From Oceanospirillum beijerinckii DSM 7166 (lineage in GTDB: Bacteria; Pseudomonadota; Gammaproteobacteria; Pseudomonadales; Halomonadaceae), in contig NZ_AULT01000056.1 in NCBI RefSeq assembly GCF_000422425.1, positions 1 to 36,987 of the forward strand: a stretch of 36,987 bases of DNA, read 5' to 3'. This document shows, one piece after another, positions 1-34,632 of this stretch. The position numbers and the translations under genes were made by a program. The notes under the pieces were generated by a model. That model saw only the letters and a program-made list of their open reading frames with translations. It had not been told where the DNA came from and searched no databases. How positions within the stretch are numbered: the stretch's first letter is position 1; every line of letters starts with the position of its first letter.

Positions 1-182
1 CCCACCACCGGGGAGACGGTTACCGCAATATCCACTTCGTCATCCACTTCATCCAGATAGATATCTTCTGAATTCGAGGTGTACACATTGGGATAAAACA
101 ACGCCAGATACAGCGCCGTGAATTTAGATTTTTTCTGCACAACACCCATCAGGTCCGCTGTGCCGTAGGTATCCAATGCCAT
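1..182 (-). CDS. E: Major capsid protein, N-terminal part (lambda gpE family), cut by window edge
   Basis: Reading leftward from the ATG at 182, the frame stays open to the window edge. It begins MALDTYGTADLMGVV, the typical start of lambda gpE-type major capsid proteins, which build the T=7 head shell. Only about 60 residues are visible against roughly 340 for the family. The gene follows the gpD-like gene, the same order as in lambda. A short hairpin with a T run sits just upstream in the intergenic gap, so capsid transcription may be partly separated from the upstream genes. The assignment rests on the N-terminal signature and on synteny; the shell domain itself is outside the window. Confidence 0.88.
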   Translation of the reverse strand, partial: MALDTYGTADLMGVVQKKSKFTALYLALFYPNVYTSNSEDIYLDEVDDEVDIAVTVSPVV

Positions 183-201
183 TTTCTTTTACCCTATAAA
201 C

Positions 202-222
202 AAAAAAAGCCGCTTACGCGAC
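202..222 (-). terminator. Small hairpin plus T run between decoration and capsid genes
   Basis: On the minus strand a 5-bp stem (GTCGC with GCGGC, one G-T pair) closes a GTAA loop and is followed by seven T residues. It looks like a weak Rho-independent terminator or an RNA-processing and stability element between the decoration and capsid genes. Confidence 0.45.
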
Positions 223-245
223 CCGTTCAAACCTGCAAAACAGGA

Positions 246-593
246 CTAACCCGGTAACTGCAGACCAATCGGCGTACCCACAAAAGCACAAGCCTTCTGC
301 ACATCCGTTGCCGCCCCCGGCCAGGCCACCAGATCAGGGTTAAAGGTGCCTGCTTTGATCAACTGAACACTGACCGCACCGCCGGTACTATCCAGCACCG
401 CAGGTGCCAGGCGCACCGCCACTTCAGTACCATCCGTGGCCGCAGGGTCCCAGATATGGAACTCCCCCGTTGATTTCTTCAAACCCAGCGGCGTATATTT
501 CGCCACCGTCAGACCAGCGGCTAATTTACCCTCAACCGTCACCAGAGGTTCCGAGCCTGTTACCCAGGTTTCTGGAATGTACTGCTCTATCAT
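246..593 (-). CDS. D: Head decoration protein (lambda gpD family)
   Basis: This 115-residue protein matches the lambda gpD family in size (110 residues in lambda) and in its C-terminal half, where a KAGTF motif followed by LVAWP and AFVGTPI mirrors the gpD segment around KSGTF, VLWP and AFAGTAI. gpD trimers bind the expanded capsid on its outer face and stabilise it after DNA packaging. The start ATG at 593 has an AAGGGG ribosome site 8-9 bases upstream. The gene directly follows the protease/scaffold gene and precedes the major capsid gene, exactly as C-Nu3-D-E in lambda. The identification is seen in the sequence and supported by synteny. Confidence 0.9.
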   Translation of the reverse strand: MIEQYIPETWVTGSEPLVTVEGKLAAGLTVAKYTPLGLKKSTGEFHIWDPAATDGTEVAVRLAPAVLDSTGGAVSVQLIKAGTFNPDLVAWPGAATDVQKACAFVGTPIGLQLPG

Positions 594-595
594 AA

Positions 596-1069
596 TTACC
601 CCTTATCACCCGTCGCTTTTTCATAAGATGCCAGCAGGGCATTGCCTGCCGGAGCATCACCCGCATCCGCATCAATATCTGGCTGCTGCTCATTAGCCAT
701 CAGCTTATCCAGCGCGGTATTCATCTGATTCGATGCCGGAGCCGCCGGAATAGTCGCCATCACACCAATCGCTTCCTCTTTCGTCAGATTGGTGTTGAAT
801 GCCAAATAGTTGGCCGTAGCCTCACAACCCTTAGCTTCTTCAGCCTGCAAGATGCCACCAATACGGTCCTGCATCGCTGCAGCGGCATCAGCCGCACCCG
901 TATCAACAGAAGCCGCTGCAGCCTGTTGAGCGGCAGGAGTAGGAGCCGGTTGCTGTGCTTCTGAATTAACAGGCGGCTGTTCCGCTACCTGCGTCGTACC
1001 GGATTGATCCGCCTTTAACTGCTGTTGTGTTCCTGCAGCCGCTGCAGCAGGATTGTTTTGATCAGACAT
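596..1069 (-). CDS. Probable nested capsid scaffold (Nu3-like), in-frame internal start
   Basis: An ATG at 1069, in the protease frame, opens a 157-residue C-terminal product beginning MSDQNN. It is preceded by an AGGT ribosome site about 7 bases upstream. The product is low in complexity (Ala, Gln, Pro runs) and then helical, as expected of a capsid scaffold. Lambda makes Nu3 from an internal in-frame start in gene C in the same way. The internal start and ribosome site are visible; production of a separate protein is inferred. Confidence 0.55.
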   Translation of the reverse strand: MSDQNNPAAAAAGTQQQLKADQSGTTQVAEQPPVNSEAQQPAPTPAAQQAAAASVDTGAADAAAAMQDRIGGILQAEEAKGCEATANYLAFNTNLTKEEAIGVMATIPAAPASNQMNTALDKLMANEQQPDIDADAGDAPAGNALLASYEKATGDKG

Positions 1070-2005
1070 AGCACTACCTGTTGTTGATCCCAATGTGATA
1101 ACCCTGCCCTGACTGGACAGGTATTCTGAAAAATACTGCACGGCCTCATGACCGTTGATTAACTCATCTGCAAAACCAATATCCACCGCCTCTTGGCCGG
1201 TATAGACACCCGCCTCAGTCGCCAGCACTGCCTCTACAGACATACCCGTGTGATCCGCGACAATTTGCGCAAACTGCTGACGCAGCTTATCGGTAGACAT
1301 CTGGAACTTATCCCGCACCTCATCCGGTAACGCCTGATAAGGATTACCCTCAACCTTGCATGCCCCGGAGTGAATCAGCGTGACTTCGACCCCATTCTCT
1401 TCCATCTGCCTAGCCCGACTGACATGAGCCATCACCACACCCACCGAACCCGCGATACCTGTTTGAGTAATCAAACGCCGATGAGCCGCACTTGCCAGCG
1501 CTTGGCCTGCAGAACAATTCATATCATTGCAGAGTGACCACAACGGCTTGCCCGCTGCATCCGCCATCTTGCGCAAGGTTTGCACCGTATCAAAACAGCC
1601 GGACACCTCCCCGCCAGGCGTGTGATTATCAAACATCACCCCCTTAACCCCAGCGTCTGCACAAGCCTGAGCCATATTCGCAATGATGCCGTCATAACCC
1701 GTGCTACCACTGTATGGCTGAATATGGCCGTATCGATGCCGCAATGAACCCGTCACAGGAACAACCGCTACACCGCCATGAACAAAATAAGGGCGCCTGT
1801 CGCACTCCACCCCATCATGCTCAGCCCGAAACCCCTTTGCAGGCTCCTGCAGCTTATGACCGGCCAGCACCTCACCTTCGACATCAACCAGACGCGAGAT
1901 ACCAAACCGATCCGCCAGCGCACTAAAGAACACCCGCGCATAACCCGGCTCAACCAGCAGAGGCCGGTTAAACACCTTTGCTGAAAGATGAGGTAAACCA
2001 CTCAT
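596..2005 (-). CDS. C: Head maturation protease, S49 family (lambda gpC-like)
   Basis: The protein is an S49/SppA-type serine peptidase of about 469 residues. The Ser165 nucleophile lies in NCSAGQALAS and a candidate general-base Lys217 lies in GACKVEGNPY; a 52-residue spacing is typical of the SppA Ser-Lys dyad. In lambda, gpC processes the portal and scaffold during prohead maturation. I chose the ATG at 2005 because CAGGGTGAT gives a ribosome site just upstream. The longer frame (to 2068) would start inside a transcription terminator. The last 150 residues are Ala/Gln/Pro rich and correspond to a nested scaffold, as with lambda C/Nu3. The gene lies immediately downstream of the cargo block and begins right after its terminator, so its transcription must come through from upstream or from a local promoter. 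Confidence 0.85.
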   Translation of the reverse strand: MSGLPHLSAKVFNRPLLVEPGYARVFFSALADRFGISRLVDVEGEVLAGHKLQEPAKGFRAEHDGVECDRRPYFVHGGVAVVPVTGSLRHRYGHIQPYSGSTGYDGIIANMAQACADAGVKGVMFDNHTPGGEVSGCFDTVQTLRKMADAAGKPLWSLCNDMNCSAGQALASAAHRRLITQTGIAGSVGVVMAHVSRARQMEENGVEVTLIHSGACKVEGNPYQALPDEVRDKFQMSTDKLRQQFAQIVADHTGMSVEAVLATEAGVYTGQEAVDIGFADELINGHEAVQYFSEYLSSQGRVITLGSTTGSAMSDQNNPAAAAAGTQQQLKADQSGTTQVAEQPPVNSEAQQPAPTPAAQQAAAASVDTGAADAAAAMQDRIGGILQAEEAKGCEATANYLAFNTNLTKEEAIGVMATIPAAPASNQMNTALDKLMANEQQPDIDADAGDAPAGNALLASYEKATGDKG

Positions 2006-2029
2006 ATCATCACCCTGAATTTCACCCAT

Positions 2030-2057
2030 AAAAAAACCCGGCCAAATGACCGGGTTT
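2030..2057 (-). terminator. Rho-independent terminator after the antirepressor gene
   Basis: On the minus strand AACCCGG and CCGGGTT pair around a short loop and are followed by seven T residues. It closes the antirepressor unit. The T run leads into ATGGGTGAAATTC, a variant of a tail found after four other minus-strand terminators in this prophage. Confidence 0.8.
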
Positions 2058-2074
2058 CGAGAAACCATTAACGA

Positions 2075-3112
2075 TTAATGCAGCAGCCTATGCCGCTCTG
2101 ACCAAGACAGCGCCTTCATTTGAAAATCGCCCATCTGCCTTACATTCTCTTGCGGCGATCCTGTACCACCTGCCAGCAACCTGACAAACCGTACTAACAA
2201 AGCGTCTGCCTCAGCCTGTCGAGCAAAACGACCACCTTGAACACCAGCACTGAGATGACCATTTACCTGCCCCTCCCAGTCTAAAATCTGGACTACACGC
2301 TCTGCACCGTCCTCAATCTGCTGGATTTGCTGCCACACCTGCAGCAGCCGGAACGCCTCAGCATAATAGGCGATCTCTGCAGGCTCGGTAGACTCCAGCG
2401 CACCGACAGAGAAATATTCCGCAATCACCCGCTCTACCAACGCCATATCAACACCGGCCATCAGCATCTGATAACCCGTCACAGTCAGCACATATTCAGC
2501 TGGGCCATCCGCCACACCAATGCGATCCATACCATCCGCCCGGATCGACAACAGAAAATAATGCCGACCATACTCAAAATGACCTTGACCCAACAACTGA
2601 CGGAACTTATCCATCACATAACCCGGACGACTATGAATCCGCTCAATATCACCCACTGTCAAACAGCGACGCCCCAGGTACTCTACAGGGATGTTGATCT
2701 CCAGCGGGGATTCATAACCAAATACCTGCTGTTTGGGCTGACAACGAGGATTTACAGCACCGCCGTTCTGCCAGTAATCCGACAAAACCTTGTAGCATTC
2801 TTTTTTGTACTGAATCAGGCGCTGTTTGATTTCCGGCTTAACTCTCTTTTCGTCTACGCCAAATAACCAACCGTTCAAATACTCAACAGGTAAGCAAAGT
2901 AGCTGGCGGTTTTTACCATCTTCAGCAACTGCGTGCATCATACACGCAGTTGAACTCAGCACTTCGTCACGCTGAATTCGCTGATTCTGTGCTCGCCACT
3001 GAAGCCCGATGTTTTCACATATTGGTTTCATGGCAACATACAATTGATTATTTTTAGGTATTACGGAAAGAGGTTGACCGTGAAAGTCTACAGTAGAGAT
3101 TTGAATAGCCAT
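2075..3112 (-). CDS. Phage antirepressor with P22_AR_N-type N-terminal domain
   Basis: The first 110 residues resemble the phage antirepressor N-terminal domain (P22_AR_N type): a strand-rich start (ISTVDFHGQPLSVI), then MKPICENIGLQWRAQNQRI and LPVEYLNGWLFGVD, and a lysine-rich helix ending near VLSDYW. The rest (345 residues in total) is helical without a second family I recognise. Such proteins bind prophage repressors and release lysis genes, or act on other prophages. The start ATG has AGGAG 8 bases upstream. The gene lies in the head region, not with the immunity genes. It has its own promoter with an overlapping dyad, a leader of over 200 bases and a terminator, so it looks like an independently expressed unit. 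Confidence 0.78.
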   Translation of the reverse strand: MAIQISTVDFHGQPLSVIPKNNQLYVAMKPICENIGLQWRAQNQRIQRDEVLSSTACMMHAVAEDGKNRQLLCLPVEYLNGWLFGVDEKRVKPEIKQRLIQYKKECYKVLSDYWQNGGAVNPRCQPKQQVFGYESPLEINIPVEYLGRRCLTVGDIERIHSRPGYVMDKFRQLLGQGHFEYGRHYFLLSIRADGMDRIGVADGPAEYVLTVTGYQMLMAGVDMALVERVIAEYFSVGALESTEPAEIAYYAEAFRLLQVWQQIQQIEDGAERVVQILDWEGQVNGHLSAGVQGGRFARQAEADALLVRFVRLLAGGTGSPQENVRQMGDFQMKALSWSERHRLLH

Positions 3113-3114
3113 AA

Positions 3115-3183
3115 CTAGGCTCCTGTGATTTTTTCGTTAAAACCCATTTCGACGTGGGTGCCAGGAGGTTCGAAACGGTTCAC
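3115..3183 (-). CDS. Candidate leader peptide directly upstream of the antirepressor
   Basis: A 22-codon frame starts with GTG at 3183, encodes a peptide containing EPPGTHVEMGFNEKITG, and stops three bases before the antirepressor ATG, with the downstream ribosome site inside its end. I recall similar peptides ahead of antirepressor-type genes in enterobacterial prophages and satellites, but cannot verify this here. The tight spacing suggests translational coupling. Its own ribosome site is weak, so expression is uncertain. Confidence 0.35.
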   Translation of the reverse strand: MNRFEPPGTHVEMGFNEKITGA

Positions 3184-3205
3184 AGAGACCGCGGACTTAT
3201 TCCCC

Positions 3206-3292
3206 TTACAGGTATTTTATTCGTCGCCCTCCCGACCAGAATGGCGCATTACGAGCGCAACTCGGGCAAGGAAAATGCCAAATTTCAGGCAC
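3206..3292 (-). CDS. Candidate Cys-containing leader peptide
   Basis: A 28-codon frame starts with GTG at the end of a terminator T run and encodes a peptide starting PEIWHFPCPSCARN, with a CPSC pair like half of a zinc ribbon. It lies in the antirepressor leader. No clear ribosome site is present upstream because the hairpin occupies that place. It may be a real small ORF, a relic of a zinc-ribbon gene, or chance. Confidence 0.25.
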   Translation of the reverse strand: MPEIWHFPCPSCARNAPFWSGGRRIKYL

Positions 3293-3318
3293 AAAAAAAC
3301 AACGCTTACGGGGTTGTT
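3293..3318 (-). terminator. Possible attenuator in the antirepressor leader
   Basis: On the minus strand ACAAC and GTTGT form a 5-bp stem followed by seven T residues. It lies about 35-60 bases after the predicted antirepressor transcription start, so it could stop most transcripts early. The stem is weak compared with the other terminators here. Confidence 0.45.
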
Positions 3319-3344
3319 GACCGTCTGTGAAAAGAGGTTTCGAC

Positions 3345-3386
3345 GCCTCAGCCCAAATACTAGGGCTGAGGCATAAGCAATGTCAA
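3345..3386 (-). promoter_or_regulatory. Antirepressor promoter with a dyad around the -10 box
   Basis: On the minus strand TTGACA (3386-3381) is a consensus -35 box. After 18 bases comes TAGTAT (3362-3357), a 4/6 match to -10. Perfect 10-base inverted arms GCCTCAGCCC and GGGCTGAGGC (3345-3354 and 3363-3372) flank the -10 exactly, leaving it in the 8-base centre. A bound dimeric repressor would block RNA polymerase. The dyad could also form an RNA hairpin at the start of the transcript. Confidence 0.65.
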
Positions 3387-3389
3387 GAA

Positions 3390-4769
3390 CTAAACTAGTA
3401 CTTCGACAGGTTCATCTTTATTTAACCGCTGTGACAATTTAATAGACTGATAATACTCATCCGCACTCGCCACTTTATTAATCAGAGCATTGATACCCAG
3501 CTCTTCCAGCTTTTGCTCAATCTCATCAATCGTGACATTAAAGTATTCTTTGCGACGATTCACCTTATTCACCCGGCGATCATCAAACACTTTATGCAGA
3601 GAAGACTCCAACTCAGGCGCATCATCAGACTCAATCAACGCATGCACATCAAAGGTAAAAGGCACACCCGCATCACCCAACTCTCTCACCCTATCCATAG
3701 GCTCCATGCGGCGAGTCATACCGATTTTTAATACATCCTCACCAAAACTACCGATATTGGAGATCACATAAACATGACCCTGCCTTGTTTCCTGCGCACG
3801 ACTCTTAGCCCGCTCAAATCGCTGATGAGCCTCTTCAAGCTCAGCCTTCAGCCTCAAAAGCTCTTCTTCAAATCCAGCTCTATCAGCCTCTGATTGCTCA
3901 GCCATTTTCCTTTCCATTTCAGCAATGGCTTCTTGCTTGATTTTCTCTTCTTTCTCAGCCTCTTTCTGAATACGCTCAGCTTCCTGCCGTGCTTTCTTCT
4001 CTTCCCGTTCTTGTTCGCGTAGTTCTCTTTGCTGCTCTTTAGCAAGCTGCCTAGCCTTTTTGAAATTAATCTCAATTTCTAAACGCTTTACTAACAACTC
4101 TATAAACAAAGGCTTAATAAACGCTCTACTATCCAGACATTTAATTAACGCCTCTGTCGCTACAATTGATTCTGTCAATTTCTCTAATGACTGATGACCA
4201 TTATTAGCCGTTGTTTTAGAGCACAGCATTTCAACGGTAGTTAACAGCAGAGCACCGGCCATATCAGCCTTAGTAGAGATAGCAACAAACTTACCTATAT
4301 TGACATCTGAGCCACCAATTCTAATACCATCAATAGCATTGATAGCCAGCTTTTTAAGCTCAGCTTTGACCTGTTTACGATCCTCTTGATAGGTCTGACT
4401 TGATAGCAAATCCTCTTCATTGATTAGATCAACATCCGCAGCTATAGCACTGCTTCTATCAGTGATCTCATCAATCAATAATCTGGATTCCCTTAGTCGA
4501 GCTGCTATCTCTTTATCCGTGCTTTCAAGCCGCCTAACCCTATCCTCGCATTGACCAACCTTTTTCTGAGCATCTAGATCTACCTTTACCGCCTCTTTTC
4601 TGCTGGCAGAAACAATTTCTTCAGCTTTCTTTTGGGCCTCACCTATAAGCCCTGCAACACGAGCCTCAGCCCTATTAATAATATCTTCGCGTTTATTTGT
4701 TGTTCGAACAATTAAAACAACATTAATAATAGAGAGCACTAGACCCGTGATTAAAACCACTATCTCCAT
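3390..4769 (-). CDS. Membrane-anchored coiled-coil protein with C-terminal T5orf172 (GIY-YIG-like) domain
   Basis: The 459-residue protein starts with one hydrophobic helix (about 3-22). A coiled coil follows (30-100), then a helical region resembling DUF4041 (about 100-235), a very charged Glu/Lys/Arg coiled coil (235-340), and a T5orf172/MUG113 domain (about 345-430) with HVYVISN, LKIGMTRR and a late RRKEYF segment. T5orf172 belongs to the GIY-YIG nuclease superfamily. From memory, DUF4041-T5orf172 proteins are common phage and prophage cargo, and relatives have come up in anti-phage screens; I cannot confirm a match. The likely picture is a membrane-tethered nuclease or DNA-binding sensor. 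It is visibly more AT-rich than the head genes around it, has its own upstream dyads, and the antirepressor promoter begins right at its stop. Confidence 0.7.
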   Translation of the reverse strand: MEIVVLITGLVLSIINVVLIVRTTNKREDIINRAEARVAGLIGEAQKKAEEIVSASRKEAVKVDLDAQKKVGQCEDRVRRLESTDKEIAARLRESRLLIDEITDRSSAIAADVDLINEEDLLSSQTYQEDRKQVKAELKKLAINAIDGIRIGGSDVNIGKFVAISTKADMAGALLLTTVEMLCSKTTANNGHQSLEKLTESIVATEALIKCLDSRAFIKPLFIELLVKRLEIEINFKKARQLAKEQQRELREQEREEKKARQEAERIQKEAEKEEKIKQEAIAEMERKMAEQSEADRAGFEEELLRLKAELEEAHQRFERAKSRAQETRQGHVYVISNIGSFGEDVLKIGMTRRMEPMDRVRELGDAGVPFTFDVHALIESDDAPELESSLHKVFDDRRVNKVNRRKEYFNVTIDEIEQKLEELGINALINKVASADEYYQSIKLSQRLNKDEPVEVLV

Positions 4770-4836
4770 GACAAAAACATCCTTTCAGTTCTATGAGCAA
4801 ACTTTGAAGTCTGTCTTTATGGAAACCTTATATCAA

Positions 4837-4970
4837 CTAGGGAAAACCCTAGGCTGCCGCAATTTGAGCCGAGCTATGTACCCAACCTGGGTACACAGCT
4901 TTGACAAAAGGTGCAGCCGGGCCAATGGAAAACACCGAGCACTGACCTTTCGGGAGCTACCCTAGGCTGC
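4837..4970 (-). promoter_or_regulatory. Dyad-rich control region upstream of the T5orf172 gene
   Basis: Two perfect inverted repeats lie here. CTAGGG-AAAA-CCCTAG is at 4837-4852. TGTACCCA-ACC-TGGGTACA is at 4877-4895, with AGCT outer arms extending it to about 29 bases. The 11-mer CCCTAGGCTGC occurs at 4847 and again at 4960. The spacing suits operator sites for a dimeric regulator or leader hairpins. I could not place a convincing promoter. Confidence 0.5.
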
Positions 4971-4988
4971 ACACAAACCTGCAGGCAT

Positions 4989-5013
4989 AAAAAAACCCGC
5001 CGAAGCGGGTTTA
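4989..5013 (-). terminator. Rho-independent terminator after the 106-residue gene
   Basis: On the minus strand AACCCGC and GCGGGTT pair across a short TTCG loop and are followed by seven T residues, then ATGCCTGCAGG, a variant of the recurrent terminator tail. Confidence 0.82.
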
Positions 5014-5028
5014 TTTAAAACAACCTGA

Positions 5029-5349
5029 TTACTTATCTTTTTCTTTGAAGTAGTCGAGCAAAGAATCAAGCCCTTCGCCATGCGGGCCATCAAAAATATG
5101 CCACGAATTACTGACTTCAAAATAAATAGCACAATCTTCGTTAGACCAGTTATTACTAAAAACTACTGGCTCAGCATAAAAGACATCCGTATCTTCCTCT
5201 GACCGATCCACAACCCTCCACGCAATAACAGGCTCTTTGCTAAGCCGCACAATCCCGTCATCATCTTCTTCAGGAAGCACTACGTAAGCCTTCTTATTAT
5301 CCGGGACTACTTGGACAATTTTATTCACCGTCTTAATACTCTTACTCAT
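5029..5349 (-). CDS. Small acidic hypothetical protein in the cargo block
   Basis: This is a 106-residue, strongly acidic protein with no signal peptide or membrane segment and no family that I recognise. It has a Glu/Asp-rich patch (PEEDDDG, then RSEEDTD) and several Trp residues (IAWRVVD, NNWSNED, NSWHIFDG). An AGGGG ribosome site precedes the ATG at 5349. It is isolated by terminators on both sides (5380-5408 upstream and 4989-5013 downstream), so it should be a separate transcription unit. Acidic, compact phage proteins of this size can be DNA mimics or inhibitors; that idea rests only on composition. Confidence 0.55.
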   Translation of the reverse strand: MSKSIKTVNKIVQVVPDNKKAYVVLPEEDDDGIVRLSKEPVIAWRVVDRSEEDTDVFYAEPVVFSNNWSNEDCAIYFEVSNSWHIFDGPHGEGLDSLLDYFKEKDK

Positions 5350-5379
5350 AACGCCCCTGTTTATTTCATAAACCTGAAC

Positions 5380-5408
5380 AAAAAAGCCTGACCAATTGGC
5401 CAGGCTTT
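5380..5408 (-). terminator. Strong terminator after the two-gene cargo pair
   Basis: AGCCTG and CAGGCT form a near-palindromic stem around CCAATTGG (5385-5406), followed on the minus strand by six T residues. It lies about 20 bases past the stop of the membrane coiled-coil gene. Confidence 0.8.
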
Positions 5409-5427
5409 AAAACCTAAAACTAAAGCT

Positions 5428-5958
5428 TTATTTCTCTGATGTTTCGAGAAGCTTATTCATCTTTTCAAGAAGCTCTCTGTTAACCCGATCCGATTCATCT
5501 AGCTTTTTAGAAATGGCCTTAACCTCTTTTTCTAGGTCTTTGATAGCATCCTCATTGGATTCTTCCAGGTCATCAAGCTTATCTTGAACCACTTCAAGCT
5601 TTGTGTCTGCAACCTGAGTCGTGGCATTGAGATCATAAAGTTGCAATGCACCCCAGCCAAAGACAGCAAGAAGCGCAAGCAAAACAGCAACCGCAATATT
5701 GAGCCTATCTTCAACTTTACTTACACCAGCTGGCACCCCACCCAGAGCACCGATATCAGATTGCACTCTACCAATATCAGACTGAATACTACTTACATCA
5801 GTCCCAACAGAGTCAACTTTTTCTTTAAGGTCCGATATCTGATCACTATGCTCAGAAGAAGCATGAAGAACCCAGTCAAGTTTCTGCTTATCATCCGCAC
5901 CACCTGACGGCACCCCGGATAATGGAGGCGGCTGGTTTTGAGATCCTGCTTGCATCAT
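5428..5958 (-). CDS. Membrane coiled-coil protein, second gene of a coupled cargo pair
   Basis: The protein has about 176 residues. A Pro/Gly-rich head is followed by a coiled coil with repeated heptads (SDIGRVQSDIG, about residues 35-75), one transmembrane helix (about 88-109, NIAVAVLLALLAVFGWGAL), and a charged coiled coil to the end. Its ATG overlaps the stop of the upstream 95-residue gene as TGATG and has AGGGGG upstream, so the two are translationally coupled. No enzyme motif is visible. It could be a membrane effector, a holin-like or exclusion protein, or an anchor for its partner. The arrangement of small soluble protein plus membrane coiled coil is what I would look for in a phage-exclusion or toxin-type pair; this is inference. 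Confidence 0.6.
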   Translation of the reverse strand: MMQAGSQNQPPPLSGVPSGGADDKQKLDWVLHASSEHSDQISDLKEKVDSVGTDVSSIQSDIGRVQSDIGALGGVPAGVSKVEDRLNIAVAVLLALLAVFGWGALQLYDLNATTQVADTKLEVVQDKLDDLEESNEDAIKDLEKEVKAISKKLDESDRVNRELLEKMNKLLETSEK

Positions 5959-6245
5959 CACATCCCCCTATGATTCAGCCACTCCCAAGTCTCTTTATCA
6001 TGATACCCCCAGTAACCACTAAAACTAGAAACTATATGAGGACCATAGATATTCACGGGATTCTGACCACTACCAAGCAGCACCATATCAACATCATGCG
6101 GGGTAATAGCTTTCGAATCACTCACAAGCCATGCTAACTCACCAACCTTCTTGTGATCATTAGGATATTTACTCTTTATCGCATCCTCAATGTTAGGTGC
6201 ATTACCCACAGGAGGCTCCGCCAATGTAACAAGAAAGACAGCCAT
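5958..6245 (-). CDS. Small protein, possibly SinR/Cas2-like fold, first gene of a coupled pair
   Basis: This 95-residue protein begins with a beta strand (MAVFLVTL). It continues with a helix (NIEDAIKSKYP), a second strand with AWLVSDSKAI, and a C-terminal FSGYWGYHDKETWEWL segment. This strand-helix-strand layout and the closing Trp-rich segment resemble small SinR-like proteins with a Cas2-type ferredoxin fold, some of which are found in toxin or defence contexts. The resemblance is by eye and weak. The ATG at 6245 has GGGAG upstream. It lies directly after the portal gene in the direction of transcription, with a 149-base gap, and is coupled to the membrane coiled-coil gene. Confidence 0.5.
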   Translation of the reverse strand: MAVFLVTLAEPPVGNAPNIEDAIKSKYPNDHKKVGELAWLVSDSKAITPHDVDMVLLGSGQNPVNIYGPHIVSSFSGYWGYHDKETWEWLNHRGM

Positions 6246-6394
6246 ATCTCACTCCCAACCTAAAGACACAAGCGCTAAGAAACCAAACCTCTTAACGTTT
6301 CTAAATAACAATGATAGCCGGGATGGTAACGCAACAACCTACAGAAAACTACAGCGAACGACACAAGCCTCTGTCTAACCGGCTATTTCATCAC

Positions 6395-8002
6395 TTAAGC
6401 CGCTTCCTGATCCGACTGCATTTCACCCATAATCTTGGCCGCATTCAGACTAATCAGGTCAGTCGGTAAGCCTTTCTCTTTGCGCTCTGCGATCTCCCGC
6501 ATTTGCTGATCAAACACCTCTTGATAATCCTTACCCATTACGGCCAGTTCATCCTCATGGGTACTAGGGCCAGCCTCAATCCTGAGAATAGCCTCTTTCA
6601 CTTCTTTCAGGCCGTCAATGGCAATGCGGCCCGTGCCGATCCAGCGGCAGCGAGTCCAGGCATTAATCCCCTGATAAAAATCACGGGTTGCACCTTTAGG
6701 CAGAGAAACCAGATTACGGAACAGCACTTCTTCCAGCACACAGCGAAAGATGATGGTCGCCTTGCGCTCTGCAATAATCTTGCGACGCCCCATAAAGTAA
6801 CGCCAGTTCTCACCCAACGACGCCTTAACCGTACTGAAGGACATCTGTTTGAAATTCTTACTCAGCGTCTCAACCGGCAAATTCAAGCCCGCCGCCAGCC
6901 AACGCATTAAAGATTCCTCAAAATCCACATAGCCGTTATCGACATTACCGGGAGACTGTACATTTAGGCGCTCACCATTCATTAAGTGTGGCACCCGGAC
7001 ACCGTTCAATTTCAACCCTAAGTTGCTGTGATACGCATCCACAGTATTCATATGGTTCAGTAGATTCTGACTAGATAAATTACCGCCGCCCAGAATCTCT
7101 GATACCACATCCGGCGGCATATCACTCTCAATCGTAGCGGCAAACATGGCACTGGCCGCTGCATTTTGCAGTCGGATATGATGCGCTTTTGGCAGCATAT
7201 GCATCTGTTCCAGTACGGTCAGAAACTGGTTAGCACCACGGGTTTGACCATCCTCAGACGGCTCAAAGATATGAACGAACTTTGGCCGACCATGGCGGGT
7301 TTCACGACTGACATAGCGCCATTCGTTACCCATGCCATGACCCAGGCCATAACCATCTGACTGACCACTCCGCACATGGTAGCCAGTCGCTGCACCATGA
7401 CGATTAATAACGACACCTGCCTTCAGGCCATTACCATCCATCAGGCCGCCGGGGTTACTGACCCGTTTCGGTGCCACGGATTTAATGGCGGTAGAGATAT
7501 AAGAGCCATTGCGCGGAATCCACTCAATCGCAAACATGTCTTCACCCGCTCTGGTATGAACCCCCACACCCTCACGAATCATCATTGTAAAGGTGCGCTT
7601 GCGTTCCGCATCCAGATAGCAACCAGTTGGATCTTCTGCGACCTCTTGCCAGACGGCTTCTACATCACGGGCAAACGCTCTGGCATCTTCTTGGCTGATC
7701 CCAAGCACCAGATGATTAGGCTTGTAGCTGAGCCGGAACAGCTCACCCACAATATTATCAATGTGCAGCTGTACGCCGTTGCTGGCAAAGGCGTTATTGC
7801 GCACCACATCCTCAGCTCTGGCATTACCCAGCCCCAAGTTAGGCAACAGAGCGGCATCCGCTGTTTTAACACTCGGATACCAGTCGGCCAGCTGACCACC
7901 AAAACCGGCACCGGCACCCTGATAACTCATATCCTGCCGCAAGGGCTGACCATCCAGGCCAACCAGTTGCGGTGATTGTGTCGATGCGATTGGTGCGTTC
8001 AT
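6395..8002 (-). CDS. B: Portal protein (lambda gpB family)
   Basis: At 535 residues the protein has almost the same length as lambda gpB (533). It shows family features such as an N-terminal segment with NNAFASNGVQLHIDNIVG, a central TRAGEDMFAIEWIPR, and WLAAGLNLPVETLSKNF with FSTVKASLGENWR near residue 400. The portal is the dodecameric ring at one capsid vertex through which the terminase pumps DNA. The ATG at 8002 has AGGT 5 bases upstream and starts 8 bases after the gpW stop. In lambda the next gene is the protease; here the cargo block intervenes. Confidence 0.92.
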   Translation of the reverse strand: MNAPIASTQSPQLVGLDGQPLRQDMSYQGAGAGFGGQLADWYPSVKTADAALLPNLGLGNARAEDVVRNNAFASNGVQLHIDNIVGELFRLSYKPNHLVLGISQEDARAFARDVEAVWQEVAEDPTGCYLDAERKRTFTMMIREGVGVHTRAGEDMFAIEWIPRNGSYISTAIKSVAPKRVSNPGGLMDGNGLKAGVVINRHGAATGYHVRSGQSDGYGLGHGMGNEWRYVSRETRHGRPKFVHIFEPSEDGQTRGANQFLTVLEQMHMLPKAHHIRLQNAAASAMFAATIESDMPPDVVSEILGGGNLSSQNLLNHMNTVDAYHSNLGLKLNGVRVPHLMNGERLNVQSPGNVDNGYVDFEESLMRWLAAGLNLPVETLSKNFKQMSFSTVKASLGENWRYFMGRRKIIAERKATIIFRCVLEEVLFRNLVSLPKGATRDFYQGINAWTRCRWIGTGRIAIDGLKEVKEAILRIEAGPSTHEDELAVMGKDYQEVFDQQMREIAERKEKGLPTDLISLNAAKIMGEMQSDQEAA

Positions 8003-8009
8003 AACTACC

Positions 8010-8210
8010 TCAGAAAACTCTAAATGCCCGGCGACGTTGGCTGGATGCCAATACGGATTCCAGCTCTCGAATATAGCTTCTTAGCTCACTCACATTGACC
8101 GGGGTATACTCCACCTTCCGGCCATCCTTTTGGATGCTTGCCACCCCTTTACCAGTAGTGACTTTATGTAACGCCGCTTTTGCTTCGTCTAACTGCGCTT
8201 GTGTAGCCAT
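8010..8210 (-). CDS. W: Head-tail joining protein (lambda gpW family)
   Basis: This 66-residue protein aligns along its length with lambda gpW (68 residues): an N-terminal helix with EAKAALH, then TGKGVASIQKDGRKVEYTP, a helix with ELRSYIRELE, and a closing QRRR. gpW completes the packaged head and forms the site to which the tail connects. It sits between terminase and portal as in lambda, with short gaps. The match in length, motif order and position leaves little doubt. Confidence 0.93.
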   Translation of the reverse strand: MATQAQLDEAKAALHKVTTGKGVASIQKDGRKVEYTPVNVSELRSYIRELESVLASSQRRRAFRVF

Positions 8211-8224
8211 CAGCTTTCCTGTTG

Positions 8225-10408
8225 TTAACCGCCCATTCTGCGCCCCAGTTCGGCCAGTTGGTCAGCCACGCTTTTACCCGCTGCAGCGGGCGGAGGGTTT
8301 GGCCGATCCGTTTGGTGCCGGGTACTGGTCTGGGGTTTGAAGGTGCGGGTTTTGGGTTTAGGTTTAGAAGATTCTGGTTGTGGGAATTGGGTTTGTTTGG
8401 GTTCGACTGTTTCAGCCACATCCCCAACCACGATATCAATCGACTCAGCCTCTACCGTGCGCTCACAATGAATTTCAGTGATCAACTCACCTTCATCTTC
8501 ACCGCTGAGCAAGTCAGTTTGCATCAGCCCTGCTTCAAACTGATCCCAGCGCTCAGGGCTCCACAGGTGAATACGCTCTGTTCGAGCACCATGCATGGCG
8601 TAGTTTTCACAATCCAAGGCCTCTACCCTAGCACCCGACCTTTTGATCCACTTCTTCTTACCGCCATGTTTGCGGGATGGAATCTTACTTTCACCCAACA
8701 ACTGATCAGGGTAGTCATAGCGAACATCTTTATAGGCGTGCATTCTGCCTGACCCGCTACCAGTAAGCTTCAGCCTCTCAGAGACTAGATCTTTACCTTT
8801 TTCTACACCGACAATCCAAACCTGCAGACCAAGCTTGGAGGCTTTGGTTGTGGCGCTCAGATCAATCTTTTTCGGCGGCGTTGTGATTGCGCGCTCCAGG
8901 TCATTACTACCTTTAATCGCACGAACATTTACGCCCCGCCCCTGACGGGTTCGCACGTAGTGATAAACTGCATCAGTGTTGTCACCTGAGTCGATATGCA
9001 TGGCAGTGACCGGCACCGAGCCAAAACGCACATGCGGATAGCGACCAAATACAATGCGGTCCAGCTCATCCCAAACGGGGTCATTTACATCACTGACACC
9101 GGCCTTAGCCAGAATCTCACCCCACCAGATCAGCCAGCTCTCCTCACCCTTACCCCAAGCGCGAATTACTATAGCCAATCGATCATCCTGAACATCAACA
9201 CCGATAGTCAGCATCAGGCCGTTATAGGGCACGACCAGTTCCGGGTAATCTTCCAGCCGGTCGCGGATCTCATCCACGCCCGGTGAGCCGTCTTTATATT
9301 CGTAGGCTTCGCCGCAGGTGTTGTTGACGAAGCTGATCATCTCGGACTCATCACCCTGGTTCAGCTTGTGCAATGCCTTCAGGTAACGCTCCATCAGTAC
9401 CGAGAGTTTGGAGCCATCAAACGGGGAATACAGCTCGTTGATATAAAACCCTACGGTGTCTTTAATCTCCGGCTTGTTGACCACCGGCACCAGTTTTTTG
9501 ACGTTGCGGTTTTTGTCTTTATCGCTCCAGGGCTTTCCGCAACAGGGCGCCAGATAATAGGCAGTGTCGGGCAGGTAATCCCCGTAAATTTCGTGATTCC
9601 TGCCAGGCTGAATATCACAGGCGACGTATTCCCATTTCAGTACATGGGATTTACCACAATGGTGACAGGGCACCAGAAACTCAGTCTGGTTAGAGTGCCG
9701 GTACTCTTCTGCGATACGGCTATGGCCTTTAATTGTGGGGGTGCCACCAAAAATCACTTTCCGGTTTGGGAAGCTTTTAGCCCGCTGTTCCAGCAGGGCC
9801 ACCGAATCCCCCTGACCTTTTACATCACTGGAACAGTCGTCGGGTTCTTCCACTGCTACCACAGGGGCTGACAGAGATTTGATATTGTCCGGTGCATTGG
9901 ACGCGGCCAGTGCCAGAAAGCCTCCGGGAAAACGAATAAAGTCCAGCCGGTTGCCACTGGATTTGCTGGTCGAGACATCCACCAGCTCTCTCAGTACCGG
10001 CGTGGCCCGGATCGACGGGTCATATTTCTGGTCGCGGTACTTGCGAATTGTTTTCTCTTTCGGGAACAGCAATACCACCGGGCAGGGCTCCAGATGCGTC
10101 CGCTTAAACAGGTAGTTGTTCCACGCTCCATCAGTCCAGGCGGCCTGCGCTGATTTAAGGCAGATAATCTTGCGAACCTTCGGATCGTCCATCGCCGCCA
10201 GCATGTATTTAATCCAAGGTGTCGGGGCATCTTTGTATTTACCGGGGCGGGCGGTCTGTTCCGGTGCCATAAAGCGATATTTATTCGCCCATTCCACACT
10301 GCTCATCTTCGGTGGCGGTGCAAACTTCTTCAGCGCCCGTTCCAGCACCCGATTCAGATTCGAGACTAATTTCAGATAAACCTTCGAGGATTTGTCGAGA
10401 GTGGTCAT
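8225..10408 (-). CDS. A: Terminase large subunit (lambda gpA family)
   Basis: A 727-residue packaging ATPase and cos endonuclease. A Walker A-like KSAQAAWTDG lies at about 85-94, and Walker B with the catalytic acid (VVAVEEPDD) at about 183-191. A zinc-binding CHHC and CC group lies at about 248-290. The nuclease region begins near residue 400 with GVDVQDDRLAIVI, and YEYKDG-type sequences precede it. The family cuts cos and drives DNA into proheads. The last 60 residues are Pro/Lys/Thr-rich and look like an extension. The reading frame overlaps the small-subunit gene by 128 bases and no strong ribosome site precedes the ATG at 10408. The true start may therefore lie a little downstream (Met35), or translation may be coupled. 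Confidence 0.93.
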   Translation of the reverse strand: MTTLDKSSKVYLKLVSNLNRVLERALKKFAPPPKMSSVEWANKYRFMAPEQTARPGKYKDAPTPWIKYMLAAMDDPKVRKIICLKSAQAAWTDGAWNNYLFKRTHLEPCPVVLLFPKEKTIRKYRDQKYDPSIRATPVLRELVDVSTSKSSGNRLDFIRFPGGFLALAASNAPDNIKSLSAPVVAVEEPDDCSSDVKGQGDSVALLEQRAKSFPNRKVIFGGTPTIKGHSRIAEEYRHSNQTEFLVPCHHCGKSHVLKWEYVACDIQPGRNHEIYGDYLPDTAYYLAPCCGKPWSDKDKNRNVKKLVPVVNKPEIKDTVGFYINELYSPFDGSKLSVLMERYLKALHKLNQGDESEMISFVNNTCGEAYEYKDGSPGVDEIRDRLEDYPELVVPYNGLMLTIGVDVQDDRLAIVIRAWGKGEESWLIWWGEILAKAGVSDVNDPVWDELDRIVFGRYPHVRFGSVPVTAMHIDSGDNTDAVYHYVRTRQGRGVNVRAIKGSNDLERAITTPPKKIDLSATTKASKLGLQVWIVGVEKGKDLVSERLKLTGSGSGRMHAYKDVRYDYPDQLLGESKIPSRKHGGKKKWIKRSGARVEALDCENYAMHGARTERIHLWSPERWDQFEAGLMQTDLLSGEDEGELITEIHCERTVEAESIDIVVGDVAETVEPKQTQFPQPESSKPKPKTRTFKPQTSTRHQTDRPNPPPAAAGKSVADQLAELGRRMGG

Positions 10409-10802
10409 GCAGAATATCCACGTCTATATCTGTATCGTATTCGGTATCCAGTTCGGCTTTCAGCTGAGCGTTACCGTTCAGTAGATCAGAGCGAATCGCG
10501 ATCACGACATTGGTCAGCCGTTCTTCCACCAGATCGGCGGGCACCAGTTCTTCCAGATCTTTGGCATACGCCAACTCTTCACGGTTGGCCCGAATACTGT
10601 CTAATCGCTCTTTTGCGGTTTCAGTGTTCTTACCCGCCTCTTTCCGAACCAACCACTTAAACACCGCAACGGTGTCATAGGTGTTCGTTTTTCCCCGACC
10701 AGCATCATCCTTAATCGGAAAATTCGGGTGCCGCTGATACTCAGTAAAGGTGCGCTCTGAGATGCCGAATATCTCAGCCAGTTGCTTTTTATTCACATCC
10801 AT
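10281..10802 (-). CDS. Nu1: Terminase small subunit (lambda Nu1 family)
   Basis: The N-terminus VNKKQLAEIFGISERT is nearly that of lambda Nu1 (VNKKQLADIFGASIRT), the winged helix-turn-helix that binds cosB. After a YDTVAVFKWLV segment the protein is helical, with an acidic tail (173 residues in total, 181 in lambda). It recognises the cos site lying just upstream of its own gene and recruits the large subunit. The 3' end overlaps the large-subunit frame. This is secure from sequence and position. Confidence 0.92.
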   Translation of the reverse strand: MDVNKKQLAEIFGISERTFTEYQRHPNFPIKDDAGRGKTNTYDTVAVFKWLVRKEAGKNTETAKERLDSIRANREELAYAKDLEELVPADLVEERLTNVVIAIRSDLLNGNAQLKAELDTEYDTDIDVDILHDHSRQILEGLSEISLESESGAGTGAEEVCTATEDEQCGMGE

Positions 10803-10831
10803 AAATCACCCATCACAAAGTAAAAATCAGC

Positions 10832-10939
10832 TAACTTATTGATCCAATTGAAAAAGGAAGGAAGGTATAGGATCTCCCCCATCTACGAAAACTCCGCGAC
10901 TCTACGACCCCGTATTACCAAAAGCCGCCAGAAGGACCC
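10832..10939 (-). other. cos packaging site: cosQ, cosN and an IHF-type site
   Basis: Read on the minus strand, GGGTCCT (10939-10933) equals lambda cosQ. After 22 bases (23 in lambda) comes TACG, then GGGTCGTAGAGT (10910-10899), then CGCGGAGTTTTCG, which matches lambda TACG, GGGCGGCGACCT and CGCGGGTTTTCG. The 12-base middle part is the predicted cohesive end. Further on, ATCAATAAGTTA (10843-10832) fits the IHF consensus at the place of lambda site I1 before Nu1. A pyrimidine stretch between them (CCTTCCTTCC) could hold the R sites, but I cannot identify these clearly. Confidence 0.88.
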
Positions 10940-11087
10940 GCTGTTTTCAGAGGGTTACAGCCGATCCGGCCAGAAAGCCGAATCAAAAAAGAAAAGGGCA
11001 GTGACTGGCACTGCGATTCAAATTCATCTTAGTGCTGACTGCCAGTATGCCCAATGCCAGGATAACGCCTGACTCGTTTACGGAGCC

Positions 11088-14597: not shown

Positions 14598-15548
14598 CTA
14601 ACCAGCATCACACAATCCATAAGAACTGCTACACGCAGCCGGATCAGCCGACGCTGCCAGCAGATCAAACTGACGACCACCGCGCGACGTTTTCGACCAT
14701 TCCACCATTCGCCCGATCCCGTGCCGCTCATAGCTCACATCAGCATCAGAGGAAATCATAGGATCAGTCACAACAGGGAAAAATGTTGCAGATGCGCGAC
14801 GGGCCGCATCGCTAACCAACCGCTCCCATTCCATAACACGCTCAACCTCTTCTGGCATTCTGAGCGCGATATTCTGCAACTCATCTTTGTTGCAGTTGAC
14901 GCATGGCATACAACCCACACGACTCATACCCATCTTGTAGAGCGGATTAGGCTCTATTCCCATAACGCGATGAGCCTCAAACACAGACTCAGCAGACCAG
15001 CGCGCGATTGGTCGATAGTTAAATAACCCACCCCCAACCTCTTCAAATTCAGGTGCATAGCGTCGTGCTGGCGACTCATCCCGCCGGACCCCCTGCCAAC
15101 TCCAAACAACATCACCCGCATCCAAGGCCGGGAGAAACACCTGCTCAATAATCGGATCACGCTTTAAAAAATCAGTACAGAAACGAGCCTTAGCAGATGG
15201 GAAGCGCCCCTTCCACATACACAGATCAAGAAACGGATTCCCCGTCGGCTTCAATACCGCCAACGCCCGATCCCGAGCTGCATCCGTCCAACCAGGCAAA
15301 TCACCGGATTCCAACTTGCGCCGCTTACGCTCAATCTGAAATGAGAAATCAGCCTTCACCGTCTGTATTGGCAAGCCCACTGCATCGGACAGATACACCA
15401 GATAGTCATAGACCAATGGGTGCTCATGCCCTGTATCAGCAAAGACTAGCGCTAGGTTTTCAGCCTCCAAAGCCTGAGCAAGCAACACTGTCGCAGTCGA
15501 ATCTTTTCCGCCGCTGACAGAGACAATATTCCACTTAACCACCTCCAT
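14598..15548 (-). CDS. PAPS reductase/DndC-like PP-loop protein
   Basis: A 316-residue ATP-pyrophosphatase-fold protein. The PP-loop SGGKDST lies at about 12-18, followed by LALVFADTGHEHP. Cysteines fall at about 124 (RFCTDFLKR) and at 213, 216 and 219 (GCMPCVNC), a set that could hold an Fe-S cluster, as in relatives of DndC and phage PAPS-reductase-like proteins. The family activates sulfur or modifies nucleotides and nucleic acids; the phage members are mostly uncharacterised. AAGGAGG overlaps the ATG at 15548, so translation may really start at a GTG two to three codons later. It lies in the leftward early operon between a hypothetical gene and the O-like gene. Confidence 0.75.
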   Translation of the reverse strand: MEVVKWNIVSVSGGKDSTATVLLAQALEAENLALVFADTGHEHPLVYDYLVYLSDAVGLPIQTVKADFSFQIERKRRKLESGDLPGWTDAARDRALAVLKPTGNPFLDLCMWKGRFPSAKARFCTDFLKRDPIIEQVFLPALDAGDVVWSWQGVRRDESPARRYAPEFEEVGGGLFNYRPIARWSAESVFEAHRVMGIEPNPLYKMGMSRVGCMPCVNCNKDELQNIALRMPEEVERVMEWERLVSDAARRASATFFPVVTDPMISSDADVSYERHGIGRMVEWSKTSRGGRQFDLLAASADPAACSSSYGLCDAG

Positions 15549-16080
15549 CCTCCTTACCACCAAACTCAACCCAGCCCGCACTTGAGTGCAGCTGATTTAA
15601 ATCCCGTGCCGCCTTCGCAATCCCATGCCGCAACACCAGAAACTGCTCCGAATTCAACTCAGACTCAGAATATTCACCGCCCTCCATCGCCTGCCCGGCC
15701 AGCATCACCAGCTCAGCAGCCTGAGCCAACAACTGACACGGCGACGGCGGCTTATCGCCCTTTAGCGGCTGCACCTTGTAGTCACACTTAAAATCCCGGT
15801 CCGGGTGCCACTGCTCACCATCAGAATCAATTCCATCCTCATCCAGATCATCAGGGCGATCCTTACGATTAGCCTCCCGAGAAACGCCAGTCACAAAACC
15901 AACGAACACATTGGTCACTTCCTCATCCCAGAACTCATCCATGTAGGTCTCTACCACCTCTTCGGCTGCCGCATCACGCTCAGCCCGAGTCGCGAAAAAC
16001 TCAGTATCACCCGCCGGATCACAAACAAAAAACGGCTTATCCGCCACCGGATCTGTTACCGGCCAATCCTTATTACTCAT
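15535..16080 (-). CDS. Hypothetical acidic phage protein
   Basis: A 181-residue protein with no family that I recognise. It is acidic in the middle (DDLDEDGIDSDGE) and shows a helical C-terminal part with SELNSEQFLVLRHGIAKAARDLNQL. Its ATG overlaps the stop of the CII-like gene by four bases (ATGA) and its end overlaps the PAPS-reductase-like gene, so it belongs to the leftward early operon. No membrane segment or signal peptide is visible. Confidence 0.65.
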   Translation of the reverse strand: MSNKDWPVTDPVADKPFFVCDPAGDTEFFATRAERDAAAEEVVETYMDEFWDEEVTNVFVGFVTGVSREANRKDRPDDLDEDGIDSDGEQWHPDRDFKCDYKVQPLKGDKPPSPCQLLAQAAELVMLAGQAMEGGEYSESELNSEQFLVLRHGIAKAARDLNQLHSSAGWVEFGGKEDGGG

Positions 16081-34206: not shown

Positions 34207-34623
34207 TTAATAATCATCATCAACTAATGGAGACTCATGTTGCCATGATCCGATACAAGATAGTTTACCATTAAAAAAAGCCCGATCATCTTCAGCATTT
34301 AACAGTCTAGAATTCCACAGCATAATAAAACAATTATACTCCCCCCCTCCTGAACGAGCCGTTAACTCTTCAATCAATTCTATTGAATCAACTCCATTAT
34401 TCCTACATAACTCTTCTATACATACAGGTGAATCAACAGCCTCATACCAGATAAAGTCATGGTCATACCAGCACCCCAAATCTTTACTAAACTGTGAAAT
34501 AGGCTCATCATCATCCACGCCACATTCTTCTAAGTAAGATTCAACTGATTCTTCATTTAAACTACCAATCCAAACTGTAACCCAATGATTCTCAGTTGTA
34601 AAAAAAGGTTTATTTTCAAACAT
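34207..34623 (-). CDS. Putative immunity protein (Imm22-like) for the Rhs toxin
   Basis: A 138-residue acidic protein with WVTVWIGSLNEESVESYLEE, then SQFSKDLGCWYDHDFIW, resembling the Imm22 immunity family, and a C-terminal CFIMLWNSRLL segment. AGGAGG lies before the ATG at 34623, nine bases after the Rhs stop, so it is co-transcribed and probably co-translated with the toxin. It should bind and neutralise the Rhs tip in the producer cell. The family name is from memory of the motif; the immunity role follows from position. Confidence 0.68.
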   Translation of the reverse strand: MFENKPFFTTENHWVTVWIGSLNEESVESYLEECGVDDDEPISQFSKDLGCWYDHDFIWYEAVDSPVCIEELCRNNGVDSIELIEELTARSGGGEYNCFIMLWNSRLLNAEDDRAFFNGKLSCIGSWQHESPLVDDDY

Positions 34624-34632
34624 TAATACCTC

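Follow-up and report, generated by a model that had tools for sequence, protein, structure and literature searches.

The DNA analysed here, positions 1–36,987 of contig NZ_AULT01000056.1 of Oceanospirillum beijerinckii DSM 7166 (hereafter the window), begins with a prophage head operon of the lambda type in which a block of extra genes, the cargo, separates portal and protease. This portal-protease junction is a variable cargo slot. Its contents include a homologue of the SNIPE (PD-lambda-1) nuclease and an antirepressor gene preceded by a structured RNA of the sRNA-Xcc1 family, whose loop and linker match elements of the neighbouring leader from locus to locus. We consider it probable that the slot carries exchanged cargo including a SNIPE-type nuclease, and that the antirepressor is controlled by sRNA-Xcc1 acting in the manner of C4, the antisense RNA of phages P1 and P7.

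Variable cargo between portal and protease

The first 10.4 kb of the window form the head operon, on the minus strand (Table 1). The spacing from the portal stop (6395) to the protease open reading frame (ORF; 2068) is 4326 nt, filled by cargo, and in 500-nt windows the GC content is 0.39–0.46 from 2751 to 6500, compared with 0.49–0.56 across 1–2750 and 6501–10500; in its 3′ part, the antirepressor gene resembles the flanks in composition. Thus, the AT-rich insert of ~4.3 kb reported in the original prediction is confirmed, as are the positions given there for five cargo ORFs, while its feature list lacked two structured RNAs, namely, sRNA-Xcc1 (3236–3152) and a second one, RNA-A (approximately 4972–4898). 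Four annotated phage records out of 465 with a portal match served for comparison. The portal and protease ORFs overlap in HK629 and vB_EcoM-705R4, are 82 nt apart in Vibrio phage 187P1, and enclose a single 297-aa ORF with no known role in Marinobacter phage PS3.

The comparison covered four junctions that share their border genes: those of the window, of L052 (IMG/VR, portal 92% identical), of L007 (a second prophage in the same genome, 90%) and of L335 (same genus, 71%). The portal regions of O. maris (L333, L334) and O. linum (L336) are rearranged or remnants and were left out, and in L338 (portal 32%) only the operon genes were searched. The slot of the window holds ORF95, ORF177, ORF106, RNA-A, the SNIPE homologue, sRNA-Xcc1 and an antirepressor with a P22_AR_N domain. 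L052 has the same three ORFs and RNA-A, a BRO-N gene replacing SNIPE, sRNA-Xcc1, and a fusion of KilA-N with the C-terminal part of the window antirepressor. In L007, we found RNA-A, BRO-N and also a 315-aa ORF, followed by sRNA-Xcc1, KilA-N, a TumE-like toxin and a helix-turn-helix (HTH) gene; in L335, the slot contains an AAA ATPase (best PADLOC match PD-T4-4_A, partial), a 207-aa ORF, sRNA-Xcc1, KilA-N and a TumE/HTH pair. Other cargo at the junctions of related prophages, which the original prediction had proposed to look for, is therefore present in three sister junctions, different in each, and this excludes the case in which relatives always carry the same five genes.

Between the window and L052, nucleotide homology covers 8299–4907, breaks over SNIPE, resumes at 3362–3120, breaks again over the N-terminal domain of the antirepressor, and continues from 2708 to 1. 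Inside the slot, L007 shares 5002–4907 and 3371–3120 with the window, and L335 shares 3370–3108, so the islands of homology correspond to both RNA regions in L007 and to that of sRNA-Xcc1 only in L335. The mosaic breakpoints thus fall at the RNA modules, and these modules may act as seeds for the exchange of cargo.

A further arrangement occurs on contig C70 of the same genome, in which SWIM, 165-aa and RelA_SpoT genes (the RelA_SpoT protein matches PDC-S33 in PADLOC) precede an sRNA-Xcc1/KilA-N module, a 156-aa ORF and a 1161-aa ORF that resembles a tape measure protein, a name given from its sequence only. The pair of TumE-like toxin and HTH genes lies between KilA-N and the protease in L007 (2136–2890) and L335 (6082–6836), with 97% and 92% identity; the proteases of these two prophages diverge far more than the pairs do, and recent transfer of the pair is likely.

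The loop-target code of sRNA-Xcc1

The RNA ahead of the antirepressor gene scored above the gathering score of RF02221 in Rfam (Table 1), and the stretches fetched from the same genome contain two further matches above this score. Rows for rsmX, istR, Trp/Leu leader, rnk and anti-hemB were all below their cut-offs, most of them sitting on terminator hairpins, and were rejected. With a threshold of E ≤ 0.001, 6 of 58 relatives and 22 of 321 genomes of the class contain the family (5 and 12 of them above the cut-off), and all 14 control genomes lacked a match. Two pattern scans for its core yielded at least 120 viral and at least 118 genome stretches with at least 243 core sites; the core in the window deviates from the pattern and is outside this set. 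In Vibrio phage VPBES and E. coli phage Rac-SA53, the homologous stretch has tail or baseplate genes as its neighbours.

Among the matches listed, to which the remaining counts of the pattern scans refer, there were 213 unique sites with full flanks, 198 of them with a same-strand ATG ORF of at least 45 aa within 40–300 nt. The start codon lay 70–110 nt beyond the core in 132 of these 198; the same distance applied to 7 of 98 antisense-strand cases and to 17.0% of the random points (788). After reduction at 80% identity, 158 downstream proteins remained. Pfam domains in the 88 from viral contigs were Bro-N (20), KilA-N (16), P22_AR_N (11), pRha (10) and AntA (4), and in the 70 from genomes Bro-N (25), pRha (5), P22_AR_N (2), AntA (2), KilA-N (1) and SymE (1). 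Antirepressor-type domains are the commonest class, with a total of at most 96 of 158, an upper bound because overlap between domain rows was left in.

From the same matches, 135 loci with a start codon 70–115 nt away were reduced to 82 by dropping those at least 80% similar, and the longest Watson-Crick match was compared between native and swapped pairs over 2000 permutations. The zone of the P3 loop (b′), compared with the 22 nt before the start codon (the Shine-Dalgarno zone), gave a mean length of 6.50 for native and 4.15 for swapped pairs (z 22.4), and the linker (a′), compared with the leader farther upstream, gave 5.78 and 4.10 (z 15.0); none of the 2000 permutations reached the native value in either comparison. 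Matches of at least 6 nt were present in 61 of 82 loci for b′ (8.5% of swapped pairs) and in 51 of 82 for a′ (10.7%). Sequestration of the Shine-Dalgarno sequence by the 3′ strand of P1, considered from the sequence, was set aside because the P3 loop accounts for the covariation.

Both targets recur upstream of the RNA as duplicates, designated a1 and b1, with z of 17.5 and 18.7 in 78 loci, and a control region farther upstream gave z 1.9 (68/2000). The b2 element of the leader is found verbatim in its own upstream region in 36 of 58 cases and in 61 of 4466 foreign regions. Matched changes can be followed directly: loop, leader target and upstream target read CUGUGA, UCACAG and UCACAG in the window and CUAUGA, UCAUAG and UCAUAG on contig C33 of the same genome. 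For the three sRNA-Xcc1 copies of the genome, each loop matches its own leader over 6 nt and the other two over 3–5 nt, and four SymE-like loci display pairs of the same kind by eye.

The nuclease, the second RNA and other features of the slot

The original prediction assigned a defence role to the cargo. Defence-profile searches support this for one of the five proteins, the T5orf172 protein, which matches the PADLOC profile PD-Lambda-1 nearly over its full length (E 3.3e-95, residues 27–452) as well as phrog_1847. The Pfam families T5orf172 and MUG113 both exceed the cut-off, indicating a GIY-YIG domain; they were the only Pfam rows at E ≤ 0.1, and DUF4041 is part of what the PADLOC profile covers. 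Residues 3–21 are strongly hydrophobic (mean Kyte-Doolittle 3.03), a predicted N-terminal transmembrane segment. The protein is 36% identical over 388 aa to a protein of phage PhiR26_1 annotated as PD-lambda-1, and its Glu388 aligns with Glu at residue 414 of that protein; according to the SNIPE publication, E414 is the catalytic residue and the family cleaves phage DNA at injection (PMC13190303). A defence function is likely because this SNIPE homologue combines the transmembrane segment, the GIY-YIG domain and the aligned catalytic Glu, and the product is very probably a defence nuclease. No PDB chain matched it by sequence at E ≤ 0.01.

With SNIPE, the protein thus shares the hydrophobic N-terminus, the GIY-YIG domain near the C-terminus, the aligned Glu and the near full-length profile match, but it has no separate Pfam DUF4041 match, and its gene is located in a head operon, whereas the PhiR26_1 copy is beside ren. 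A comparable case is gp19 of ES18, a DUF4041/T5orf172 relative among tail genes with terminators that is annotated as a possible moron; the window differs in having a slot of several genes in which antisense-RNA modules form the conserved islands. The SNIPE gene is preceded by a palindrome, CTAGGG-N4-CCCTAG, of which two copies (375–390 and 543–558 of L008) also precede the SWIM/RelA_SpoT cargo of contig C70; the surrounding stretch is 84% identical between the window and L008, and the palindrome is possibly a shared operator of cargo genes.

For ORF95, ORF177 and ORF106, no role can be assigned, and defence is not supported. The label SinR-like, originally given to ORF95 (6245–5958), has no support in Pfam, PHROGs or NCBIfam and was rejected, the single sub-cut-off Pfam match going to another family; PADLOC also gave no family. 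Relatives of ORF95 in viral contigs were confined to the prophage of the window and L052, and plasmids had none. Family profile searches gave only sub-cut-off matches of coiled-coil type for ORF177 and no match for ORF106.

RNA-A contains the GCCUAG and CGAAA elements of int-alpA RNAs (RF02996) but scores below the gathering score of this family (29.9 bits against 35.8) and stands before BRO-N or SNIPE genes: it lies ~30 nt ahead of the BRO-N gene in L007 and L052 and ahead of the SNIPE gene in the window. The 186-nt region around it folds better than shuffled sequences (z −3.47), and 5002–4907 is 90% identical in L007. An int-alpA search of the genome itself gave no match, and pairing of RNA-A with BRO-N leaders was judged by eye in two related sequences. 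In 30 int-alpA loci (L303–L332), the hairpin loop matched its own downstream region over 5.43 nt and swapped regions over 4.51 nt (z 5.4, 0/5000), with the start of the RNA assumed from locus length in some loci and probably misplaced in at least L327. The int-alpA RNAs are possibly another antisense-type family.

The antirepressor has a P22_AR_N domain (PF10547, E 1.6e-39), and P22_AR_C was not among its Pfam rows; its C-terminal 220 residues are 96% identical in L052 (aligned over 221 residues), there behind a KilA-N domain. Ahead of its leader is a candidate promoter, TTGACA-18-TAGTAT (3386–3357), identified in a scan that overall was not above chance (7 found, 12.2 expected). The TTGACA box and the 10-bp inverted repeat are preserved in L007, L008, L335 and L010 and not in L052 or L016. 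Terminators between cargo units, as originally proposed, were found at 5408–5383 and 5012–4993; the inverted repeat 3372–3345 was rejected as a terminator, and it is more likely an operator because it has no U-run and surrounds the −10 box of this promoter. The terminator scan over 1–11000 gave 16 terminator-like sites (9.7 expected). The motif RTGCCTG follows terminator T-runs in the window (12238, 4994 and 3298, minus strand) and also, near 4765 in L009, behind an apparent host rpsT gene.

Outside the head operon, reading of the ORFs revealed a PAPS-reductase-like ORF in the phage early region (14598–15581) and, at 34207–36987, a long ORF with YD repeats (Rhs-like), whose C-terminal tail is distinct; the 138-aa ORF after it is a possible cognate immunity gene.

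Table 1 Features of the head operon and cargo slot in the window
Feature	Position	Strand	Basis
Terminase large	10408-8225	-	lambda-type head operon, profile searches
gpW	8210-8010	-	lambda-type head operon
Portal	8002-6395	-	lambda-type head operon
ORF95, small protein	5958..6245	-	no family in PHROGs, NCBIfam, PADLOC; identical in L052
ORF177, GTG start, hydrophobic segment and coiled coil	5428..5961	-	98% in L052
Intrinsic terminator	5383..5408	-	inverted-repeat and terminator scans
ORF106, acidic protein	5029..5349	-	no family found; 97% in L052
Intrinsic terminator	4993..5012	-	terminator scan
RNA-A, int-alpA-like structured RNA, precedes SNIPE gene	4898..4972 (about)	-	RF02996, 29.9 bits vs 35.8
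Near-perfect inverted repeat between RNA-A and SNIPE	4872..4900	.	repeat scan
Palindrome CTAGGGTTTTCCCTAG, possible SNIPE-gene operator	4837..4852	.	recurs upstream of L008 SWIM/RelA_SpoT cargo
SNIPE (PD-lambda-1) homologue, N-terminal hydrophobic segment, GIY-YIG, Glu388	3390..4769	-	profiles, alignment
Candidate promoter TTGACA-18-TAGTAT, 10-bp inverted repeat around -10	3345..3386	-	promoter scan
Upstream targets a1 (3343-3338), b1 (3330-3325)	3325..3343	-	read from sequence; family-wide test
Terminator-like hairpin and T-run between a1/b1 and RNA	3291..3318	-	read from sequence; T-run block conserved
sRNA-Xcc1, putative antisense RNA; loop with b′ at 3185-3180, linker with a′ at 3175-3170	3152..3236	-	RF02221, 67.7 bits vs 53
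Leader targets a2 (~3138-3131, 5-nt match), b2 (3128-3123, 6-nt match), Shine-Dalgarno 3124-3120	3120..3138	-	read from sequence
Antirepressor, P22_AR_N domain	2075..3112	-	PF10547; C-terminal part 96% identical in L052
S49 protease	2068-596	-	lambda-type head operon
Terminator at protease ORF 5′ end	2034..2057	-	arms from repeat scan, T-run read from sequence
Decoration D	593-246	-	lambda-type head operon

Relation to C4 RNAs, alternative readings and implications

These data raise the question of how sRNA-Xcc1 relates to C4 of P1 and P7 (RF01695; target family RF03163; clan CL00128). C4 is likewise an 87-nt RNA with a P1-P2-P3 junction; its P3 loop contains b′, directed at the ribosome-binding site, its linker contains a′, and its targets are both downstream and upstream. 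Its published description gives three stem-loops, an RNase P cut at GGW, a b′ loop partly over ribosome-binding sites, a′ conferring specificity upstream, and clients that include antirepressor-type and SymE-like genes (PMC5320573). In the eight C4 loci that we examined, inspection by eye showed the same order of elements; upstream in one of them is an RF03163 target match below the cut-off. The C4-type traits present in sRNA-Xcc1 are b′ opposite the ribosome-binding site, a′ opposite a leader element, and duplicates a1/b1 upstream. RNase P-type ends (GG at the 5′ end of P1 and ACC at the 3′ end in the window) were noted by eye only, and a loose 3′-end pattern fits 72 of 82 loci, which is weak evidence for RNase P processing. 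The two RNAs differ in P2, which is distinct in sRNA-Xcc1 and has an AAUAC...GGGGAAUA internal loop, and RF02221 is listed in no Rfam clan. Membership of the window RNA in C4 itself was rejected because the C4 model gave no match at E ≤ 10, and the reading that suits sRNA-Xcc1 best is that of a second class among immunity RNAs of the C4 type.

The anatomy, the family assignments, the covariation of loop and target and the mosaic breakpoints are shown by these data, and from them we infer expression, repression, heteroimmunity, defence, and exchange by homologous recombination at the RNAs. The junction would be a moron slot with contents exchanged between prophages, and the SNIPE-type membrane nuclease would probably cut the DNA of superinfecting phages during entry. 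sRNA-Xcc1 would derive from the leader part of the transcript that encodes the antirepressor. Its P3 loop would pair with b2 in the Shine-Dalgarno zone of the antirepressor and its linker with the leader element a2, so that translation would be blocked in the lysogen; the antirepressor would serve lysogeny control, under an antisense-RNA module. The second target pair, a1/b1, stands upstream, ahead of a terminator. Related prophages with altered loop and target pairs would escape mutual repression, and the conserved RNA modules flanking the cargo would offer homology for swapping.

Several results speak against this interpretation. The C4 covariance model gave no row at E ≤ 10 for 3060–3330 of the window, the sRNA-Xcc1 region there folds no better than shuffled sequences (z −0.05), and its a2 match is just 5 nt. 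A b′ match of at least 6 nt is missing in 21 of 82 loci, 10 of them in the antirepressor cluster, and when the test was pooled, just 28 of 82 rows ranked their native leader first or equal first. The code is not always distinctive: C70, L010 and L020, out of 11 loci in the genus set, have one b′ code in common, and some foreign pairs between strains score equal to own pairs. The crossed control of b′ against the upstream leader was slightly above chance (z 2.1, 44/2000); the other crossed control, for which the linker slice was slightly different, gave z 0.1.

Another question is whether sRNA-Xcc1 is instead a cis-acting leader, an attenuator or riboswitch in which the loop forms a pseudoknot with the Shine-Dalgarno sequence of the same transcript until a signal opens it, with no trans action or immunity role. 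The constant spacing to the start codon, a hairpin lying between this codon and the RNA, and the loop-leader complementarity would suit such a leader, but the repetition of both targets on the upstream side of the RNA, as in C4 systems, would be needless in cis, and a discrete RNA of ~88 nt was mapped in Xanthomonas (PMC2996969), which makes this possibility unlikely. Three publications on the family present a different picture from the prophage antirepressor leader with matched targets described here: a novel, orphan sRNA with many predicted targets in 2010 (PMC2996969), an RNA ahead of symE in the integron cassette most widespread in Xanthomonas (PMC12444791), and a virulence-linked sRNA in Xylella (PMC12189769). 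These readings in Xanthomonas and Xylella would favour a mainly trans-acting regulator of many host genes whose prophage location is incidental. We give this almost no weight, because host-wide targets would not yield the locus-by-locus tracking of the neighbouring leader by loop and linker, with crossed controls near chance. A literature search returned no paper joining sRNA-Xcc1 with an antirepressor, most subscription papers being outside that search.

It is also very unlikely that the cargo is decaying prophage debris without function. Some relatives are rearranged, with a transposase ORF near the portal in O. maris and only a portal remnant in O. linum, but the five cargo ORFs of the window are open, ORF95 is identical in L052, the SNIPE homologue retains the aligned Glu, and the a/b pairs co-vary.

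The antisense interpretation would give sRNA-Xcc1, an orphan sRNA of 2010 later tied to virulence, a specific and testable mechanism, and the match of loop and target suggests a role for a poorly understood family of bacterial small RNAs. A readable loop-target code would predict which prophages cross-repress, and the slot between the portal and the sRNA-Xcc1 module is a place to seek new defence genes. More broadly, we lean towards the view that sRNA-Xcc1 forms a second structural class among the immunity RNAs of C4 type, extending well beyond one genus in phages and genomes, and that its changeable loop code determines heteroimmunity groups; RNA modules, probably including RNA-A and the int-alpA RNAs, would then be shared borders for swapping defence genes, and lysogeny control and defence cargo would travel as one cassette. 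If this is true, the published virulence readings concern immunity RNAs borne by prophages or integrons.

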